IMG/VR virus record: IMGVR_UViG_3300047510_003123
Span: 1-49,241 of that record
Length of the DNA: 49,241 bases
From: a virus
Strand: one strand, 5' to 3'
Position numbers and translations under genes: made by a program. The notes beneath the pieces are model-generated. The model searched no databases, was not told where the DNA came from, and saw only the letters and a program-made list of their open reading frames with translations. Numbering within the stretch: the first letter of the stretch is position 1; each line of letters begins with the position of its first letter. Positions 10,348-49,091 of the stretch are shown here, piece by piece.

Positions 10348-10354
10348 ATAAATA
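10348..10354 (-). promoter_or_regulatory. TATTTAT element before the 302-aa baseplate gene
   Basis: On the coding strand it reads TAAACTATTTAT, a 12-mer also found before the 1575-aa gene at 18664. It ends 19 nt before the ATG. Possible -10-like core of a phage promoter; inferred from recurrence. Confidence 0.45.
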
Positions 10355-10356
10355 GT

Positions 10357-18677: not shown

Positions 18678-18684
18678 ATAAATA
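18678..18684 (-). promoter_or_regulatory. TATTTAT element before the 1575-aa gene
   Basis: Coding strand TAAACTATTTAT, ending 14 nt before the ATG at 18664. A second overlapping-type TATTTAT lies further up at 18742-18748 within an ATTT-repeat. Candidate promoter core only. Confidence 0.45.
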
Positions 18685-18753
18685 GTTTACCCCAAAATTT
18701 TAATGGAAGATGGGTAATTGAAATTTAGAAATAGAACTAAATAAATAAATCTA

Positions 18754-41484: not shown

Positions 41485-41491
41485 ATAAATA
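41485..41491 (-). promoter_or_regulatory. TATTTAT element before the 1657-aa baseplate gene
   Basis: Coding strand GGCTATTTATTAA, 14 nt before the ATG at 41471, the same distance as at the 18664 gene. Candidate promoter core. Confidence 0.45.
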
Positions 41492-41507
41492 GCCTATTGT
41501 AATTTTT

Positions 41508-43427
41508 TTATCTTTTCGGCATATAATCACCGTCTACCTTATTTACCCCTTGTTTGATAATTTTGAACAATTCCTCATCAAATTGAGCAACAAATTTTTT
41601 CCTGTCCATTTCTGGCATGGTTGACAACATTTTTACAAGTTCAGGACTTCCTGTGAGTTCTATCTTTGTTATTTGTCCTCCAGTTACATTTACATCTATT
41701 TTGTTTGGCATCAATCCCTGTTGTGTAAACTGTCTTCCTTGAATTCCAGTTGAATAATATTGAGTTAATGACTGATTATTTATTATCTGACTTATCCTTT
41801 GTTCCGCTTGTTTAAGTTCTCGTTGAGCTCTTCTTTGTTCTTGGTTTCTTTTTTTCATCTCATCGGTCATTTCCGCACCCGAAATCATTGGTTGATTTTT
41901 CATTAACTCATTAATTTTTGCCGCCTCATCTTTTATCATATTTAACATTTTGGGAAAATCAGTAGCGCTAGTTGGGATTCCTCCTGCTCTTTCTTTGGCT
42001 TCTTTTGCAACCTGTTCACCCAAAGTTTCGAGTGATTTTTCCAAGTCTTTTATAGCATTATCGTCACCTTTAATTAAACTTTCAACGCTTTCTTTAACCC
42101 CACGAAACAACGCATTTGACTTTTCTCTAGAACCCTCTGTTGTGATTCCTGTTTGGTCAGCGGCAGTTTTGGTTACTGCATATCCTAATCTTCTTAATGT
42201 TTCCTGAAGTTCTATTACAGTTTTTCCTGAGGCAAGACCAAGTGTTAATCTATCCTTTATTGATGCAATATTTGTATTCATCAATGTTTGTGTATCTAAT
42301 TGACTTCTCTGAATTTCCTCCAAAGTTTTGGGTGCTCCTTTCTGTAATTCAATAAGTGTTTCAATTTGGTCGTTAGACAGTTTTTGTAATTCAACCGATT
42401 TTCTACTTCCGTCGTCTTGAAGCATATCAATTACATACTTTCCTTCTTTATCCATCCTCGCTAAGTTGGCAAGTAACATTTTGTCTTCCTCGGATTCGAA
42501 TTGGAAATCAGGTTTTATCATCTCTAATTTCCTTTGAACGTCTGCAGCATTAAGTGATAATTTCATAAGTTCTTCACTACTCATACCTGCTTGGTCCGCA
42601 ATTTCTCTCAACATTAACTTACCGTAAGGTGTAATTTCAAATCTTTTTGTTTGCTCATTGAATTCACTATATTGTGCGGTCATTTCAACCAAAGCATCTT
42701 GTAGTCCTTCAGGGTCCATAAGTGATTTATACATTAACTCAAATGGGTCTGTTAAAGTTCCAACTGACACACCTAATCTTTGGAACGCGCTCGAAAGTTC
42801 TATTGCCTTCTCAGGTTTAAGTGCGTTTTCCGCTAATTGGAAGACTTGGTTCATGTCGAATTTGAGGACTGTGGCTTTAGTAGCCATCCTTGTCAATCCT
42901 TCAACACCATCTTGAAAATTAAATTGATTCATTTTGCTCATGTATTGAAACGTGGTGTCCATAACTTGTACAAGGTTTGCACCTACGTTTCTAACATAAC
43001 CTATGGCATTTTCTAATTCGGGTCCTATTCTTGAGAATTGTACTCCTATTGATTGAAAATCTTCTACCATACTATCCACTGTCCTACCCATAACTTGGCT
43101 TGCGGATAATAAACTTTTAATATCATCTGTGCTTGCTATTACATTTCTTCTTGTGGCAACGGAAATTGCTTCAAAAGCCTGTGCAGCATCTTCGAATTTT
43201 AAACCTAAGAGAGCCGCTTCGGGTGTTGCATCTGCAAGAGCAACTTTGAGCTCTGCAACTCTTTCTCTGGTCATTCCAAACAGGTAATTAACACTTCTAG
43301 CCCTACCCTCTAATTCCTTCATTACATGTTTGACACCATCTAGTCCAAGACCTTGGCCTTCTTTATTTTCATTATCTACTGTACCTTTAGTTGTGAAGGC
43401 TTTTATAAAACTTTCTAAAACATCCAT
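41508..43427 (-). CDS. 29: Tail tape measure-like protein
   Basis: 639 residues, almost entirely helical, similar in size to T4 gp29 (590 aa). After a short start, residues ~25-330 have the alternating Ala/Leu/Asp helical pattern of tape measure proteins (AALLGLKFEDAAQAFEAISV, GLTRMATKATVLKFDMNQVF, ALKPEKAIELSSAFQRLGVS). A second helical part (about 400-560) has charged repeats (AKEARAGGI-like, QEQRRAQRELKQAEQRI). Tape measure proteins set tail length and pass into the host during injection. Position right after the tail-assembly chaperone is the usual one. gp29 homology is inferred from size and place; the role is well supported. Confidence 0.82.
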   Translation of the reverse strand: MDVLESFIKAFTTKGTVDNENKEGQGLGLDGVKHVMKELEGRARSVNYLFGMTRERVAELKVALADATPEAALLGLKFEDAAQAFEAISVATRRNVIASTDDIKSLLSASQVMGRTVDSMVEDFQSIGVQFSRIGPELENAIGYVRNVGANLVQVMDTTFQYMSKMNQFNFQDGVEGLTRMATKATVLKFDMNQVFQLAENALKPEKAIELSSAFQRLGVSVGTLTDPFELMYKSLMDPEGLQDALVEMTAQYSEFNEQTKRFEITPYGKLMLREIADQAGMSSEELMKLSLNAADVQRKLEMIKPDFQFESEEDKMLLANLARMDKEGKYVIDMLQDDGSRKSVELQKLSNDQIETLIELQKGAPKTLEEIQRSQLDTQTLMNTNIASIKDRLTLGLASGKTVIELQETLRRLGYAVTKTAADQTGITTEGSREKSNALFRGVKESVESLIKGDDNAIKDLEKSLETLGEQVAKEAKERAGGIPTSATDFPKMLNMIKDEAAKINELMKNQPMISGAEMTDEMKKRNQEQRRAQRELKQAEQRISQIINNQSLTQYYSTGIQGRQFTQQGLMPNKIDVNVTGGQITKIELTGSPELVKMLSTMPEMDRKKFVAQFDEELFKIIKQGVNKVDGDYMPKR

Positions 43428-43431
43428 AAAA

Positions 43432-43438
43432 ATAAATA
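43432..43438 (-). promoter_or_regulatory. TATTTAT element before the tape measure gene
   Basis: Coding strand CCCTATTTATTTTT, only 5 nt before the tape measure ATG and 11 nt after the stop of the frameshifted chaperone extension. If it is a promoter the transcript would be leaderless. Confidence 0.35.
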
Positions 43439-43445
43439 GGGTGAA

Positions 43446-43586
43446 TTATACTTTCTTATTGAGTTCTATCCACTTGTCGAGCAAATATTTCCTAACGAAA
43501 ATTGGCATTTTCATAAAGTCTTCCCATGAGACTTTTAATAGAGTAGATAAATAATAAAATTCGTCTAGTTGTCCAACCCTATAATC
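43446..43586 (-). CDS. Frameshifted C-terminal extension of the tail-assembly chaperone
   Basis: Directly behind the chaperone's UGA stop (43587-43585), dropping the single U gives an open frame of 46 codons, DYRVGQLDEFYYLSTLLKV onward, ending KWIELNKKV with a TAA at 43446-43448. No ATG, GTG or TTG precedes its conserved-looking part, though TTG codons occur in the overlap upstream. The sequence (L-EFYYL---LKVSWEDFMKMP---R-YLLDKW) is like the C-terminal helical domain found fused in frame in related T4-type tail/baseplate chaperones (from memory). So the expected full product is about 293 residues made by a +1 shift at UUC-UGA. Alternatives are an independent start, a real disabling mutation, or an indel error in the A6/T6 run at 43600-43605. 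Confidence 0.6.
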   Translation of the reverse strand, partial: DYRVGQLDEFYYLSTLLKVSWEDFMKMPIFVRKYLLDKWIELNKKV

Positions 43587-44328
43587 AGAAGAAAGGACGA
43601 AAAAATTCAACCCCAAACCCAACGTTGATTGTGAGTTTTTCTCCTGATGGGGTTGTGATTGTTTTTCTTAAATCTAACCTTGGAGTATTTTCATCCAAGA
43701 ATTTTTTAATTAATTTAGAATCCGAAATCGGAAGTTGTTCTATGAATTTTGCAATATATCCTTTGTCTGTATTTCCCCCAACATCTACTATTTGTTTTTG
43801 AAGTTTGGTTGTTACTGAAGGTGAAATTCTACCTTGCGGATAGCTGTCTAATATTTTACTTATTTCACTAGAGTCACCTAAAGTGAGTGGTTTAAGTTTC
43901 ACACTTACTTTACTTTTAGGCAGTTCTAAAGAGAAAGTACCATCAGCATTAGGTTCTTGCCCTTTAACAATTGGTAATTCATCTAACCTAACAGTTGTAC
44001 TGAATTGTTTACTTGTTTTTGGGTCAGTGGCATTTATGTTAATATCCGGTCCAAAAGATGAGTTCCTTAGGAATATGAGTATTGCCTCTACATCACCCTC
44101 TAAAAGTTCTTCCACTTTTAAATCTGGCTCATACAATTTATTTCTTATTAAATTAAGTGTTAAATTATCAGAACCTCCCATTATAATGTTCTCATCCGCG
44201 GCAGTTAAATATCCAACTTTAACCGACCTTTTTTTATTCTTGTAAAAGAATCCCTCTGAAGGTAGAGGTACTACATCATGTGGTAATGTTAAATTTTCTT
44301 GTCCGTATTGTCTTGATTGGTCATCCAT
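43585..44328 (-). CDS. Tail-assembly chaperone/baseplate protein, T4 gp26/gp51-type
   Basis: 247 residues in frame. The N-terminus has the T4_baseplate-type signature: VVPLPSEGFFYKNKKRSVKV, then GYLTAADENIIMGGSD (about 20-55). A beta-rich middle (residues ~90-150, DPKTSKQFSTTVRLDELPIV) is followed by helical sequence and the end INVGFGVEFFRPFF. It lies between tail tube and tape measure, the classical location of frameshifted tail-assembly chaperones (lambda G/GT and many myoviral pairs), and its C-terminal partner domain lies in the +1 frame after the UGA. The main in-frame product probably binds tape measure protein. Transcription resumes after the tube terminator; no TATTTAT element is seen in the 72-base gap. 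Confidence 0.82.
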   Translation of the reverse strand: MDDQSRQYGQENLTLPHDVVPLPSEGFFYKNKKRSVKVGYLTAADENIIMGGSDNLTLNLIRNKLYEPDLKVEELLEGDVEAILIFLRNSSFGPDININATDPKTSKQFSTTVRLDELPIVKGQEPNADGTFSLELPKSKVSVKLKPLTLGDSSEISKILDSYPQGRISPSVTTKLQKQIVDVGGNTDKGYIAKFIEQLPISDSKLIKKFLDENTPRLDLRKTITTPSGEKLTINVGFGVEFFRPFF

Positions 44329-44400: not shown

Positions 44401-44889
44401 TTAATAAACTAATACACAACGGTCCATTCTCATAGTAGCAGTTATAGTTGCTAAACCATCTTGGTTATAAGCCAAAGAATTAAAGTTTACGTCAGTCAAG
44501 AATGTTCCGTAAAGAATCCACTTTTCTACAACTACACCTGTTGGGTCCAACATTTCCAAGTCTACGTCTTTTTTGTAACCTGCAGCATAACCCATACGAC
44601 CTGTTACAGATTCTGCATGTAAACGTACCCACTCCATCAAAGCTTGTGAAGCTGAAGGACCGATTGGGTCTCTAAATGTTACGTTAAGTGTTTGCCAGTT
44701 AAATCTTCCTGCAACCCATACAGATGTATTAAGGAAAGGAATCTCAGTTGCAGCGATTTGTATATGAGGTCTAGCAGTACTTTCTACAAACCATTCATTG
44801 ATACCCAAACTCGACGGAAACCTCAAAATGAAACGATTCTGACGTTTCGGTTCATAGGGTATTGGCATTTTCATTAGTAAGTCAGCCAT
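44401..44889 (-). CDS. 19: Tail tube protein gp19-like
   Basis: 162 residues (T4 gp19: 163). Hexamers of this protein stack to form the inner tail tube. Matching features: MPIPYEPKRQNRFILRFP (8-25), GINEWFVESTARPH, then WQTLNVTFRDPIGPSASQAL (about 65-84), MEWVRLHAES and the terminal TITATMRMDRCVLVY. It stands alone: a terminator lies just downstream, and the 91-base leader has both an exact T4-type late box (TATAAATA, 44989-44982) and a TATTTAT element. This fits the very high copy number of the tube. Confidence 0.95.
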   Translation of the reverse strand: MADLLMKMPIPYEPKRQNRFILRFPSSLGINEWFVESTARPHIQIAATEIPFLNTSVWVAGRFNWQTLNVTFRDPIGPSASQALMEWVRLHAESVTGRMGYAAGYKKDVDLEMLDPTGVVVEKWILYGTFLTDVNFNSLAYNQDGLATITATMRMDRCVLVY

Positions 44890-44980: not shown

Positions 44981-45811
44981 TTATTTATATTCTTCTTTAC
45001 TTCCAGTTCCAGTATAAAAAGTTTTAACTGGTTTTTCTGGTTTATCTTTATAATGTTTTCTCATTGATTCTATATTCTTAGGGTCATCATCTGAAAAACC
45101 TATCATAAAATCACTAGGCATAAATTTATTACCTAAATCTTTTTTTAAATAAGCTCTTTTGTTTAATAGAGCTGCCATTCCCTTAATGTAATCTATAAAA
45201 TCGTCCATCGCCATAATTTTAAGTTCCTCGGGTGATGCAGGACTTGACTCTGAACCAAATGATACGGGGAAGTATTTGTTTAATGAAAGATAAGATTTGA
45301 TAAGTTCTTGGTCGGACATTTCTTCCTCCCCCACAAAAGACCTGTACTTTCTTAAATTTTTTAAAAGTTCATTTTTATCTATCCCCCCAAAACCGGAGAC
45401 AATATAATTGTACACCGCTTGCTTTAAAGTTTCAGGATTGTGTCCTCGAGCAGTTATGATTGAAAATATCGAACCATTATTTATGGCCTCTCTGAAATCA
45501 TCGAAAGCAGGGCCTTCTTTAGCCCTAAGTGAATCAATTATAAATTGTTTATCACCTTCAGTTCTAAAATAACGGAAAGGTTGGTCAGCATATCCTACTA
45601 TTTCTTCACCATTATAATTGAAAGTCTCTTTCCCAATTTGACCTCTGTATTTGGCAAAATCCTCAGTACTCATCCCCACTTCTTTCCCGTCAGAATTTTT
45701 CACCATTATTTTGGTGGGCATATGAACAATGTTATCATCCCAATCGAATGCATAGTATTTCATATTGGGTGTTGTCTCGTCTTTAAAAGATTCTTTAACT
45801 ATTTTCAACAT
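44981..45811 (-). CDS. HAD-superfamily phosphatase-like protein
   Basis: 276 residues; a later ATG at 45763 (MKYYAFDWDD) is also a good start. HAD motifs are readable: motif I YAFDWDDNIV with D23 and D25, motif II SIITARGHNP with T120, and a motif IV-like MIGFSDDDPKNIE with D241-D243. Motif III lysine is uncertain; several Lys lie between 210 and 230. Members are usually phosphatases or nucleotidases; substrate unknown. The insertion of an enzyme between sheath and tube is unusual for T4-type phages. It starts after the sheath terminator and so may have its own promoter; a TATTTAT element lies 6 nt (or 54 nt from the later start) upstream. Confidence 0.8.
   Translation of the reverse strand: MLKIVKESFKDETTPNMKYYAFDWDDNIVHMPTKIMVKNSDGKEVGMSTEDFAKYRGQIGKETFNYNGEEIVGYADQPFRYFRTEGDKQFIIDSLRAKEGPAFDDFREAINNGSIFSIITARGHNPETLKQAVYNYIVSGFGGIDKNELLKNLRKYRSFVGEEEMSDQELIKSYLSLNKYFPVSFGSESSPASPEELKIMAMDDFIDYIKGMAALLNKRAYLKKDLGNKFMPSDFMIGFSDDDPKNIESMRKHYKDKPEKPVKTFYTGTGSKEEYK
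44982..44989 (-). promoter_or_regulatory. T4-type late promoter box TATAAATA upstream of tail tube
   Basis: An exact TATAAATA on the minus strand, overlapping the TAA stop of the HAD-like gene and 93 nt before the tube start. In T4 this box is read by gp55-type late sigma. It is the only exact copy I found in an intergenic stretch of the coding strand, so it may be coincidence. Confidence 0.4.
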
Positions 45812-45896: not shown

Positions 45897-48800
45897 TTAT
45901 ATGTTTTCAAACGAAGCTCCTGTTGGAGTGATAAAGAACTCTATTTCTATAAATTCGAGTGCCTTTGTTGGTTTGAGATAAATTCTACCTGTAAGAGTAT
46001 TTCTATCCAAATCTTCAGGTGAAGAAGATACGGTCACACGGAAGTCATATAAACCTCTGTCTCTTCTGATAGAATCCAAAATTGGATTTACACTATCTAA
46101 GAACTGTTGTCTAACGATTTGGTCGTTTTGTTCGAACAACAATCTAACTGCAACTGCCGAAATCAACTTACGTGCTTGTAGTAATAACCTTCTCACATTC
46201 AATCTATCTAGTGCTGAACTTGCTACTTGGAGGGTTTTATTACCCCAAATTACAGTTCCGACATCAGAGAAAGTTGCAATTGGATTAATTCTACCTTGAT
46301 AAAGAGTGTCTCTATCTTCTTGAGTTAGTTTCAATCTCGCTTTTACTGAATTAACAAGACCTCTTGTGTAACCCGCTGATGCGAACCAAGGGAATGCGAT
46401 GTTGTCAGTCAAAGCTAAGTTTCTACAAACCTCACCTGTAGGAGGTATATAAATTTGTGTATTATTAACAGTGTCTCTAACAAGAATCCAAGGATAATAC
46501 GTTGCCGTATAGTTGGAATCAATTGCTGAATTATCTAAATTATCTACAGCTTCCTGTGGATAAATAATTAAATCACCATTATTAGAATCTGTTGTGTACA
46601 TAGGATAGTCAGGAGTAGTACAGATGTATACTGAGTCTGCTCTAGAGAATTGAACCATGTTTATTGCCGCTTCGACAAGTTTTGGATTATTAACATAATC
46701 GATACTTGATGTTGCGAATACATTTATGTTTGTAGATTCAGGATTTTGGAAAGACAATATACCAAGTAGGTATGCGTAATAGTCAGAGTTTGCAAAATCT
46801 TGAGTATTTTTCTCTACAATAATTCTCTTGAACATTCCTTCACCTGTTGCTGATGGGTACCTCGAAGAAGGTGCCGCACCTGCCAAGTAACCAGAAGCTC
46901 CTAATCTATATCTGTCCTCATTTGTACGGTATTCTCTATAGATGTCCCATCCATCGAAACCACCTGCGAAACACACTGTGAACTTCCTTGAGTAAATAAA
47001 ATAATAAGGGTTTTCTTGTGTGTCAGGTTCTGCTCTAAAATCTGCGTCTCCACAAGCAAACGCTGTTTCACCACTTGTTACGTATTCTGCTCCGATAGTA
47101 ACCACAGTTGCCCCTGAGTCCATATGGAAACCTTGGGTAAGGTAGTTCCAAGGAGTTGAGTCAGTTGCAATACCCCAAGTTGCTGCTGATGGATTTCTTT
47201 TACCTTTATATTGTAAGAAAGAAACGTCAGTACCAATTTTTGTTGAAAAACCTAAATATGTTCTTCTAACATTATCACCAGTAGATTCATCAATCGATGC
47301 ACCAAAAGCTGAAATTCCAAAAGGAGGATTGTAAATTACTTCACCTGGAAAATCATATTTTGTTTTATAAATAGGAATTGGAGATTTGTTAGTTGTTGAA
47401 TCGTAAATTCTTTGGTCATATCCATAGAATCCACAAGGTAAAGCGTCTATAGGAGCTTCCTCAGACATTTCAACCATTATGTATTTAGAAACCAAAGGAT
47501 ATTCACCATCATAAGAACCAATTTTTTTACCAATAAAACTATTTGAAGCCGGGTCCATTGTACAGTTAGTGAATTTCTCAATAACAACTGGATTTTGGTC
47601 AGTATCAAAGAAGTTTCTAACTAATACATCAAACGACAAATTAGAAAACGAAATATTCGAAATTGACACCTTGATTTCAGTGTTAGCATCCGTTCCATCA
47701 GAGATGGACATAAATCTAAATAATTTATAAACCTTATTACCTCTTAACTCAGATACTAAGAAAGGAGTAATAGGACTTTGATATTTTTCTAAATTCCAAG
47801 CAATTGAATCTGAGTTGAACGATACTGCCGCTGGTAGAGAAATCAAATTACAACTTAATCCTTTAATATACCCTTTGTCATATAACTCATTTAGTTCCAC
47901 AGGATAAATTTCTTCCACAAAAAGAGGAACTTCAAATCTTGATTTATCAAAATTGGAAACTCCGAATACTTTTGTTAAGTACTTGCTACTAACTGATGAG
48001 AAAGAAGTTTCAAATGAAAAAGTATCAGAATCAACAGTTATACCTGATATTAAGAATGTACCGAATGGGTCAGAACTTACACCTGAGTACGAACCAGTAC
48101 AAACCATATTTACATCAGAAGTTCCAGTAACTTGATATTGAGGACCATGGTTAGATGAATCGTACAAAGAAATACCTCTTGAACGAAGAGTTGCTAAAAC
48201 CATATTATTATAATCTTCGTATGCAGTACCTGAATAAGAATATACATTACCTGAGATAGTACCTGTGAAGTTTGAATCTCCGTCGTCAGTTAAAGAACTA
48301 ACTACATAATCAAATGAAAATCCTGAGTAATTATCACCTGAGTAATTATCGAAGTTAGAATATAACCAAGGATAATTGTCAGAATTTGATAAATCATTCA
48401 GTGTAAAGTTCAAAGAGTTTACTCCAAAGGTATTTGTTAATGTTGTATAATTTGCAGATAAATCTGTATAATCACTTTCCAAGATAGAACCATAAACAAT
48501 TGCAGTTGTTGCAGTAGTTGCTGGAGTATCTAAAAACTGGCCTAAATAAACAGAAAAATCATTGTTGAACGTTGAAACAGAACCGTCGCTCAATCTATAC
48601 TGAACATTTAAAAGAGATTGTACCTGAGCCGGTAAAGAACCTGTTAATTCAATTGTGTTGCCTGTTGCACTTCCACTAAATGTACAAGTCCAAGGAGTAC
48701 CACCAACGACTGAAAAATCAATTGAAGTTGGGTCAACATTAGCCGTTGCAGTTATAGTCCAAGAAGGACCTGCGTCATATCCTGACAAACCTAAAATTCT

Positions 48801-49091
48801 TGTAACAAAAAGTTGGTTTGATTGTTGAAGATATGATTTTGCAATGTAAGCTGCTTCATATTTTGGGATTTGTGTCCCCTGAAATTTAGTTGGTTCGGTT
48901 CCCCCGAAAAACGCTTGGAATTCATCGTAGTTTGTTATAAAGATTGGTTCGAAGGCAGGACCTTTTATTGTCTCACCTACTAAACCCAAAGTTGTAACAC
49001 CCACACTCTGTGCCACAAAAGACAAGTCGGTTTCTGAAGTATAAACACCTGGAGAAACAAACACTTTCTGATTTACTTGAGCTGTTGCCAT
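45897..49091 (-). CDS. 18: Tail sheath protein gp18-like, enlarged
   Basis: 1064 residues, far longer than T4 gp18 (659). The contractile sheath forms around the tail tube. N-terminus: QKVFVSPGVYTSETDLSFVA, then GLVGETIKGPAFEPIFIT and DEFQAFFGG (about 8-75), standard for sheath. C-terminus: GRINPIATFSDVGTVIWGNK, then RLNVRRLLLQARKLI, FEQNDQIVRQQFLDSVNPIL, the RGLYDFRVTVSS segment and a LEFIEIEFFITP end, the conserved polymerisation domain. Residues ~120-560 are an extra beta-rich, Ser/Tyr/Gly-rich region with no match I know, probably displayed on the sheath surface. Followed by its own terminator. Confidence 0.93.
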   Translation of the reverse strand: MATAQVNQKVFVSPGVYTSETDLSFVAQSVGVTTLGLVGETIKGPAFEPIFITNYDEFQAFFGGTEPTKFQGTQIPKYEAAYIAKSYLQQSNQLFVTRILGLSGYDAGPSWTITATANVDPTSIDFSVVGGTPWTCTFSGSATGNTIELTGSLPAQVQSLLNVQYRLSDGSVSTFNNDFSVYLGQFLDTPATTATTAIVYGSILESDYTDLSANYTTLTNTFGVNSLNFTLNDLSNSDNYPWLYSNFDNYSGDNYSGFSFDYVVSSLTDDGDSNFTGTISGNVYSYSGTAYEDYNNMVLATLRSRGISLYDSSNHGPQYQVTGTSDVNMVCTGSYSGVSSDPFGTFLISGITVDSDTFSFETSFSSVSSKYLTKVFGVSNFDKSRFEVPLFVEEIYPVELNELYDKGYIKGLSCNLISLPAAVSFNSDSIAWNLEKYQSPITPFLVSELRGNKVYKLFRFMSISDGTDANTEIKVSISNISFSNLSFDVLVRNFFDTDQNPVVIEKFTNCTMDPASNSFIGKKIGSYDGEYPLVSKYIMVEMSEEAPIDALPCGFYGYDQRIYDSTTNKSPIPIYKTKYDFPGEVIYNPPFGISAFGASIDESTGDNVRRTYLGFSTKIGTDVSFLQYKGKRNPSAATWGIATDSTPWNYLTQGFHMDSGATVVTIGAEYVTSGETAFACGDADFRAEPDTQENPYYFIYSRKFTVCFAGGFDGWDIYREYRTNEDRYRLGASGYLAGAAPSSRYPSATGEGMFKRIIVEKNTQDFANSDYYAYLLGILSFQNPESTNINVFATSSIDYVNNPKLVEAAINMVQFSRADSVYICTTPDYPMYTTDSNNGDLIIYPQEAVDNLDNSAIDSNYTATYYPWILVRDTVNNTQIYIPPTGEVCRNLALTDNIAFPWFASAGYTRGLVNSVKARLKLTQEDRDTLYQGRINPIATFSDVGTVIWGNKTLQVASSALDRLNVRRLLLQARKLISAVAVRLLFEQNDQIVRQQFLDSVNPILDSIRRDRGLYDFRVTVSSSPEDLDRNTLTGRIYLKPTKALEFIEIEFFITPTGASFENI

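Follow-up and report, generated by a model that had tools for sequence, protein, structure and literature searches.

Does the tail assembly chaperone gene of this virus encode one protein or two, and if two, where does the ribosome leave the first reading frame? In the window, i.e., the whole stretch of 49,241 nucleotides that was analysed, a 247-codon frame ends with GAA TTT TTT CGT CCT TTC TTC TGA (...GVEFFRPFF-TGA). From the base after the T of this TGA, the +1 frame reads DYRVGQLDEFYYLSTLLKV... for 46 codons (43586-43449) up to a TAA at 43448-43446. A first-pass annotation of the sequence had proposed that the ribosome shifts by +1 at the UUC-UGA, thereby adding the 46 residues and giving a fusion of about 293 aa. 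The coordinates of this extension were right, as was the placement of an A6 run at 43600-43605, and the fusion also has 293 aa with the slip site that we propose below. The +1 frame is open for 27 codons upstream, up to an in-frame stop at 43668-43670, and not for the approximately 31 initially given.

We propose that the tail assembly chaperone is very probably made in two lengths, by a +1 slip at the UUU_C of UUU_CGU, with an upstream hairpin possibly helping. The features that bear on this reading are given in Table 1.

Table 1. Features of the chaperone region, in the order of transcription. Offsets in brackets are relative to the first U of the slip codon.
Feature	Positions	Strand	Evidence or conservation
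Tail sheath	45897-49091	minus	
276-aa ORF between the sheath and tube genes	44981-45811	minus	
Tail tube gene, upstream neighbour	44401..44889	minus	PHROG_4542 8e-23
Frame-0 ORF, short form of the tail assembly chaperone, 247 aa	43585..44328	minus	ORF, PF12322, PHROG_150
CCCC, core of the 5' arm of the hairpin	43649..43652 (-50 to -47)	minus	invariant, 110/110
GGA codon (Gly229) in the hairpin loop	43642..43644	minus	0 wobble changes
GGGG, core of the 3' arm, ending 8 nt before the slip codon	43611..43614 (-12 to -9)	minus	invariant, 110/110
UUU_C, putative tetranucleotide for the +1 slip (P-site UUU plus the C of CGU)	43599..43602	minus	invariant, 110/110
CGU, A-site codon at the proposed slip	43597..43599	minus	CGN 108/110, CTC 2/110
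Dual-coded stretch (RPFF-stop in frame 0, V-L-S-S in +1)	43587..43598	minus	offsets +8 to +14 invariant, 110 sequences
Frame-0 stop UGA	43585..43587	minus	TAA in 12/110 distinct sequences; GGA and a stop two codons later in 4/110
Extension in the +1 frame, 50 codons past the slip codon, closed by TAA (43446-43448)	43446..43598	minus	ORF, pN/pS
Downstream gene, 639 aa, in the tape-measure position	41508..43427	minus	position only

The chaperone gene, its family and its surroundings

The protein encoded in frame 0 belongs to the T4 gp26/gp51 family, which bears out its initial identification as a tail chaperone. It matches PF12322 (9e-11, 42.3 bits for a cut-off of 24.5) and PHROG_150 (2e-14). 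Its match spans positions 12-233 of the PHROG_150 profile, close to the 14-235 of T4 gp26; the fusion spans positions 13-265 and T4 gp51 spans 13-280. The score increases from 54.5 bits for frame 0 to 58.6 for the fusion, a small gain. In terms of reach, the predicted short product thus resembles gp26 and the predicted fusion extends towards the end of gp51. The pairing of a short and a long form after the G/GT logic, suggested at the outset, is supported. The link between the extension and the C-terminal part of gp51 rests on the PHROG_150 profile. The extension alone had no PHROG or Pfam match, and hhalign gave no match between the extension and either the last 50 residues of T4 gp51 or the extension of cyanophage Bellamy. 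The same program found nothing when the frame-0 alignment was compared with the single sequences of T4 gp26 and gp51, although Pfam and PHROGs join them.

The predicted fold of the frame-0 protein (pLDDT 77.6) weakly matches tail assembly chaperones. The top match in the PDB was the HK97 tail assembly chaperone 2ob9, itself a weak one (Foldseek probability 0.91, E 0.21). VIA-align ranked 3klu (YqbN), which we take to be a prophage chaperone, with Z 5.4 and 2ob9 with Z 5.2, the next row being at 2.7; values near 5 are common by the scale of this tool. At E ≤0.001 the model was matched by 54 viral models, including a hub subunit of SP-15 and Gp26 of Aeromonas phage 25. Absence from such fold matches does not exclude a structural family.

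The gene upstream was identified as tail tube by its PHROG match. The 639-aa gene downstream had neither a PHROG match nor a Pfam match above the cut-off; in Listeria phage LIS04 the gene in this position is annotated as tape measure. The 276-aa ORF between the tube and sheath genes had no PHROG match up to E 0.1 and no Pfam match up to E 1, and its YAFDWDDNI stretch presumably resembles a HAD-type phosphatase motif. The octamer CTATTTAT is present in six copies in the window, which is not above chance (4.3 expected). On the minus strand, copies at 10348-10355, 18678-18685, 41485-41492 and 43432-43439 lie 4-18 nt 5' of four gene starts (10329, 18664, 41471 and 43427), and many relatives also have the octamer 5' of the gene following the chaperone.

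The record of the window (49 kb) is probably a fragment, and we counted the chaperone genes in larger contigs. Five contigs of 203-321 kb, possibly incomplete, had one PHROG_150 copy each, and a protein search gave one match in each of six contigs. As a control, the same PHROG_150 search found both gp26 and gp51 in T4. In Bellamy it likewise recovered the two pieces, in GXN1 and Mel-JY01 a single copy, and in SP-15 one copy with a weak second match (E 0.03). The T4-type arrangement of two separate genes was not found in the five large contigs, with their one copy each. One gene with a frameshift may here replace the two genes of T4.

Conservation and position of the frame switch

Relatives were collected with two protein searches. 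The first had the full protein as query, and the best 80 of 109 relatives were used; the second had an alignment of the first 237 residues as query, and the best 80 of at least 597 relatives were used, some of them on contigs of the first search. Since only the first 237 residues entered the second search, the slip site itself could not bias this sample. Together with the window this made 161 loci, of which one (L063) was left out because its contig ends before the slip site. The remaining 160 loci correspond to 110 distinct sequences, which represent the nearest relatives only (at least 57% identity). Among the loci are three contigs with three different metagenome numbers (L002-L004) that encode a 100% identical 247-aa frame with the same site and extension.

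The switch into the +1 frame is present in all 110 distinct sequences: frame 0 is closed by a stop 4 or 6 codons past the slip codon, and the +1 frame stays open. An extension that overlaps the first frame near its 3' end, as in lambda-type chaperone genes, is conserved throughout the sample. The extension has 49-52 codons after the slip codon in 109 sequences and runs off the contig in the remaining one. The site reads TTT CGN (CCT or GTT) TTC TTC T(GA or AA) in 104 sequences. In four others GGA NTA TAG replaces the stop, so that frame 0 ends two codons later while the +1 extension is kept, and in two CTC stands instead of CGN. A scan with a DNA pattern gave at least 120 stretches, of which we examined 80 loci, some on contigs of the protein searches. 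The +1 extension was closed by a stop in 77 of these (42-58 codons from the GAT position) and ran off the contig in three. All examined loci together contain 162 distinct 320-nt site sequences. By eye, no clear extension was seen in five matches from bacterial genomes (L172-L176, 25-33% identity).

The extension is under purifying selection. On the tree of the 110 sequences, the parsimony changes per site upstream of the slip were 4.06, 3.56 and 11.67 at frame-0 codon positions 1, 2 and 3. In the extension they were 7.84, 4.19 and 18.13 at the three positions of the +1 codons. The median pN/pS of the extension was 0.304 in the +1 frame (5931 pairs with pS above 0.15); read in the other two frames, this DNA gave 1.245 (4572 pairs) and 0.976 (5539 pairs). 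The pairs are non-independent and these medians describe the data rather than test it. The initial suggestion of a conserved shift into the +1 frame is supported.

The same sequences locate the point where the frame changes. Second positions of +1 codons are variable before the slip, except in GGGG and GGA, and are still variable at +5. They are fixed at +8, +11, +14, +17 and +20 in the 110 sequences, and the frame switch therefore maps just before +8. The two UUC codons that precede the stop show no wobble change in any of the 110 sequences; a change of their third bases would alter a Ser codon in the +1 frame. These wobble bases thus look fixed by the Ser-Ser coding of the +1 frame, which places the shift before both UUC codons.

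The slip site and the upstream hairpin

The best slip site is most likely the UUU_C of UUU_CGU, four codons before the stop. By parsimony, the slip UUU had 0 wobble changes, compared with a mean of 14 (lowest 2) at 31 other conserved twofold codons. The next codon (244) is CGC, CGT, CGG, CGA or CTC, and never AGA or AGG, in the 110 sequences. With CTC as the sole alternative to CGN, the first C is kept even when the Arg is lost. In the 26 ORFs of the window with at least 150 aa, CGN makes up 58 of 539 Arg codons and AGA 74%, and AGA is also the commonest codon at three other conserved Arg columns. In the E site, 103 sequences have TTT, which gives a U6 run, and the other seven have TTC, so that they read TTC TTT.

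Sites of the form UUU_Ynn are called especially prone to +1 shifting in bacteria in a passage of PMC5009743. In influenza PA-X, a +1 shift at UUU_CGU was proven by mass spectrometry, and the move of tRNA-Phe from UUU to UUC is presented as its best explanation (statements of PMC3498833). In our sequences the re-pairing to UUC works in 110 of 110. Given the four sequences that lack the stop, the UUC wobble pattern, the invariant UUU_C and the distant +1 cases described below, the predicted junction peptide of the window would be EFF-VLSSDYR rather than PFF-DYR.

The first-pass annotation had placed the slip at UUC_UGA and likened it to RF2 and antizyme; the ribosome would then pause at the stop codon. 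TTC TTC T(G/A)A is indeed kept in 106 of the 110 sequences, and stop-codon pausing is cited as a known +1 stimulus (PMC3498833, in part). Yet the extension is still present in the four sequences that have no stop there, and the Ser-Ser coding of the +1 frame explains the invariant UUC wobble bases. Four of the five distant +1 cases lack a UUC directly before the stop; the fifth, LIS04, has one but shares +1 residues with SP-15 further upstream. The re-pairing of UUC to UCU would also involve a mismatch. This site, which we consider improbable, was rejected on the four sequences without that stop and the dual-coding pattern. The likeness to RF2 and antizyme falls with it: there the stop is directly after the slip codon, whereas here UUU_CGN lies four codons before it.

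The same +1 frame would be reached by a -2 slip on the U6 run, with one extra Phe in the product (EFFFVLSS). The re-pairing on UUU would be perfect in the 103 sequences with U6, but would have a mismatch in the seven with TTC TTT and in GXN1, and a -2 slip is unlikely to about the same degree as a shift at the stop codon.

The extension could instead be a separate small protein, with a start codon of its own or translated by ribosomes that re-initiate past the stop. Upstream of the slip, the +1 frame has an ATG in 88 of 110 sequences, and only a TTG or GTG in 16 more; most relatives have a GGAG in the loop of the hairpin described below, and the matching C-terminal ORF of Bellamy is annotated as a gene of its own. 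Against this, six sequences have no upstream ATG, GTG or TTG in the +1 frame and the window has a TTG only. In the window, an SD-like motif precedes one of 21 ATG starts (minus-strand ORFs of at least 110 aa, GTG and TTG starts left out). Second positions of the +1 frame are variable upstream, except in GGGG and GGA, and constrained only after the slip. An internal start was therefore rejected, the +1 frame being mostly unconstrained upstream and six sequences lacking a start codon, and we regard a separate protein as very improbable.

RNA polymerase slippage on the T6 run, leaving part of the mRNA without one U, has even less in its favour: the run is present in 103 sequences, but is missing in seven and in GXN1, where TTCTTT (longest T run of 3) goes with the same frame switch, and transcriptional slippage was rejected for this reason. 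A sequencing or assembly error in the homopolymer has a negligible probability and was rejected, since the break, which does sit at the A6/T6 run, is common to all 110 distinct sequences, seven of them without the run, and selection switches frame there.

The +1 slip at UUU_C is preceded by a conserved hairpin. In a longer stretch, RNAalifold found one six-pair helix upstream of the site, and no fold in the stretch at the slip site or downstream of it. The cores of the two arms, CCCC and GGGG, are conserved also where the code leaves the base free. The free wobble position at -49 is always C, compared with wobble C in 1-55 of 110 sequences at 11 other Ala, Thr or Ser columns. The free wobble G at -10 is invariant, compared with eight other conserved Gly columns, of which seven have GGG in 4-17 of 110 sequences and one has it in none. 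In the loop, the GGA of Gly229 contrasts with 10 wobble changes at the next lowest of 25 fourfold columns.

We analysed covariation in 81 distinct 86-nt stretches against 500 shuffles. A helix of seven pairs joins -52 to -46 with -13 to -7. Of its cells, 90.8% are paired (87.7% in shuffled data) and 41 show changes on both sides (shuffled mean 12.2); its covariation score is 0.245 (0.184). None of the 500 shuffles reached its pairing, double-change count or covariation score, and all slid registers scored lower. In its number of further pair types the helix did not stand out from the shuffled data (254 of 500). Its four core pairs are invariant; the covariation lies in the pairs that flank them, and the outermost of these is unpaired in 37 of the 81 stretches. 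The shuffles do not keep relatedness, which can inflate the covariation of the hairpin; we regard it as supportive, not as proof. The sequence of the window allows 8 base pairs between CAACCCCA and TGGGGTTG.

A second complementarity, of 10 bases, links UCAGGAGAAA (-45 to -36, 43638-43647) with UUUCUUCUGA (+8 to +17, 43585-43594) and is full in 63 of the 110 sequences. It showed no covariation, shuffles reaching every measure, and we do not claim a pseudoknot around the slip site from this pairing. The five distant +1 phages each have some hairpin upstream in single-sequence folds, made without shuffles or alignment, from which we claim nothing.

In RF2 an SD-like stimulator lies close upstream of the slip; here, the GGGG 8 nt upstream is paired with the invariant CCCC. 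The GGGG could still act in this SD-like way, but its pairing to the anti-SD is doubtful, because of the hairpin and because so few gene starts of the window have an SD-like motif. The gene leaders of the window are A/T-rich. SD-poor, A-rich leaders are typical of Bacteroidota, and three of the five weak bacterial-genome matches were labelled Bacteroidaceae or Prevotellaceae.

With a +1 slip at UUU_C, most ribosomes would translate 247 codons and stop, giving the short, gp26-like form. Some would skip one base forward at UUU_C, the tRNA-Phe re-pairing from UUU to UUC, and would then read GUC-CUU-UCU-UCU-GAU... for 50 codons to give a long, gp51-like form of 293 aa. The hairpin may help, e.g., by refolding behind the ribosome and thus favouring forward movement; during the slip its GGGG arm would sit at or inside the exit side of the ribosome. 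If the two products work as lambda G and GT do, the N-terminal domain common to both would cover the tape measure protein, and the C-terminal domain present only in the long form would bring in tail tube subunits. The sequences show the frame switch with its selection pattern, the invariant UUU_C, the covarying hairpin and the membership of the family; a shift made by the ribosome, +1 slippage in the P site as its mechanism, the part of the hairpin, and the ratio and functions of the two products are inferred.

Shift direction in distant relatives and known systems

Distant members of the family were retrieved with tblastn from public phage records. We read nine gene ends, the other matches being mostly Vibrio phages, and took each slip site from the position of the frame change, in one phage each. 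Five have a +1 extension, with the frame change at a U-run that matches the one of the window: Streptococcus phage GXN1 (TTC TTT CGT), Bacillus SP-15 (TTT TTT CAC), Listeria LIS04 (TTT TTT AGT), Microcystis Mel-JY01 (TTT TTT TGG) and the uncultured LR756508 (TTT CTA). The other four have a -1 extension, with the frame change in this U-rich place too: cyanophage Bellamy (AGT TTT TTC GCG), Agrobacterium Atu_ph07 (CAT TTT TTC GCA), Xanthomonas XacN1 (GCT TTT TTT ATT) and LR756511 (GGT TTT TTC). Homology of the extension to the family of the window is supported for Mel-JY01 alone among the nine; in this isolate it matches the extension profile of the family (hhalign E 2e-6, probability 89%). The -1 extension ORF of Bellamy matches the C-terminal end of PHROG_150, and the U6CG string of Bellamy is that of the window read in another register.

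The gene resembles the lambda gpG/gpGT system, as portrayed in part of PMC5009743, in that a short chaperone gene precedes the place of the tape measure and a frameshift close to its 3' end gives a long form with a C-terminal extension. The difference is the direction, -1 in lambda, whereas all 110 sequences have the extension in the +1 frame, at UUU_C. Other poly-U sites at the end of chaperone genes are also -1, i.e., the putative UUUUUUC of SPP1 gp17.5 (an entry of PMC6316719) and the GTTTTT of Pseudomonas phage Adele (a passage of PMC12846349). Chaperone shifts of +1 are not unheard of. That of the archaeal myovirus HSTV-2 is called very likely +1 in a section of PMC5009743, and the SEA-PHAGES training set of PRFect, mostly tail chaperones, includes 350 forward candidate sites according to a statement in PMC10274946.

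The site itself resembles that of PA-X, as far as an excerpt of PMC3498833 describes it: a UUU_CGU core, a +1 direction, a tRNA-Phe that moves from UUU to UUC and a seldom-used Arg codon in the A site. The UUU_C core is found in 110 of 110 sequences and the A-site CGN in 108, with CTC in two. PA-X differs in its E-site codon, UCC, where the family of the window has UUU or UUC. Here, moreover, it is a bacterial virus, an unrelated gene and a conserved hairpin upstream. Among the best matches listed in searches of open-licence papers, none dealt with a phage tail chaperone that shifts by +1 at UUU_CGN.

T4 gp26 and gp51 are of the same protein family, but come from two genes, where the window has one gene and a frame switch. 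A 2016 review, in the passage concerned, names T4 as the exception among long-tailed phages for the chaperone frameshift (PMC5009743). Some T4-like phages carry one short and one long chaperone gene, as mentioned in PMC10274946. Chaperone frameshifts as such are known, including +1 examples and, from a part of PMC12846349, -1 poly-T signals in T4-like phages. What is new in the present case is the slip site, the hairpin and the occurrence of +1, -1 and two-gene arrangements within a single family. This family is that of the T4 chaperones, one branch of which apparently relies on a +1 frameshift at a PA-X-like UUU_CGN site with an upstream hairpin; the products for which T4 has two genes seem to come from one.

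A tentative reading, for which we would give somewhat less than even odds, is that the direction of the shift flipped within this one family. The lineage of the window would slip +1 on UUU_UUU_C, Bellamy and Atu_ph07 -1 on U_UUU_UUC, with the roles of the frames swapped, and T4 would have kept the two products as two genes. In the lineage of the window, forward movement would then be driven by the upstream hairpin, perhaps with a pseudoknot around the slip site between UCAGGAGAAA and UUUCUUCUGA, and the host may be one in which translation begins without Shine-Dalgarno pairing.

In the records of four isolates, Mel-JY01, SP-15, LIS04 and GXN1, a +1 extension lies at the corresponding place and is not annotated as a fusion. 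The names given there are 'baseplate hub', 'baseplate protein' or 'hypothetical', with no mention of a long form. Mel-JY01 (L169 1851-2931) has separate entries for the chaperone and the +1 extension, both as hypothetical proteins, and Bellamy (L171 3699-3869) lists its -1 extension ORF as a gene of its own, a 'baseplate hub assembly catalyst'. With the extension present in isolated phages, the frameshift is directly testable.
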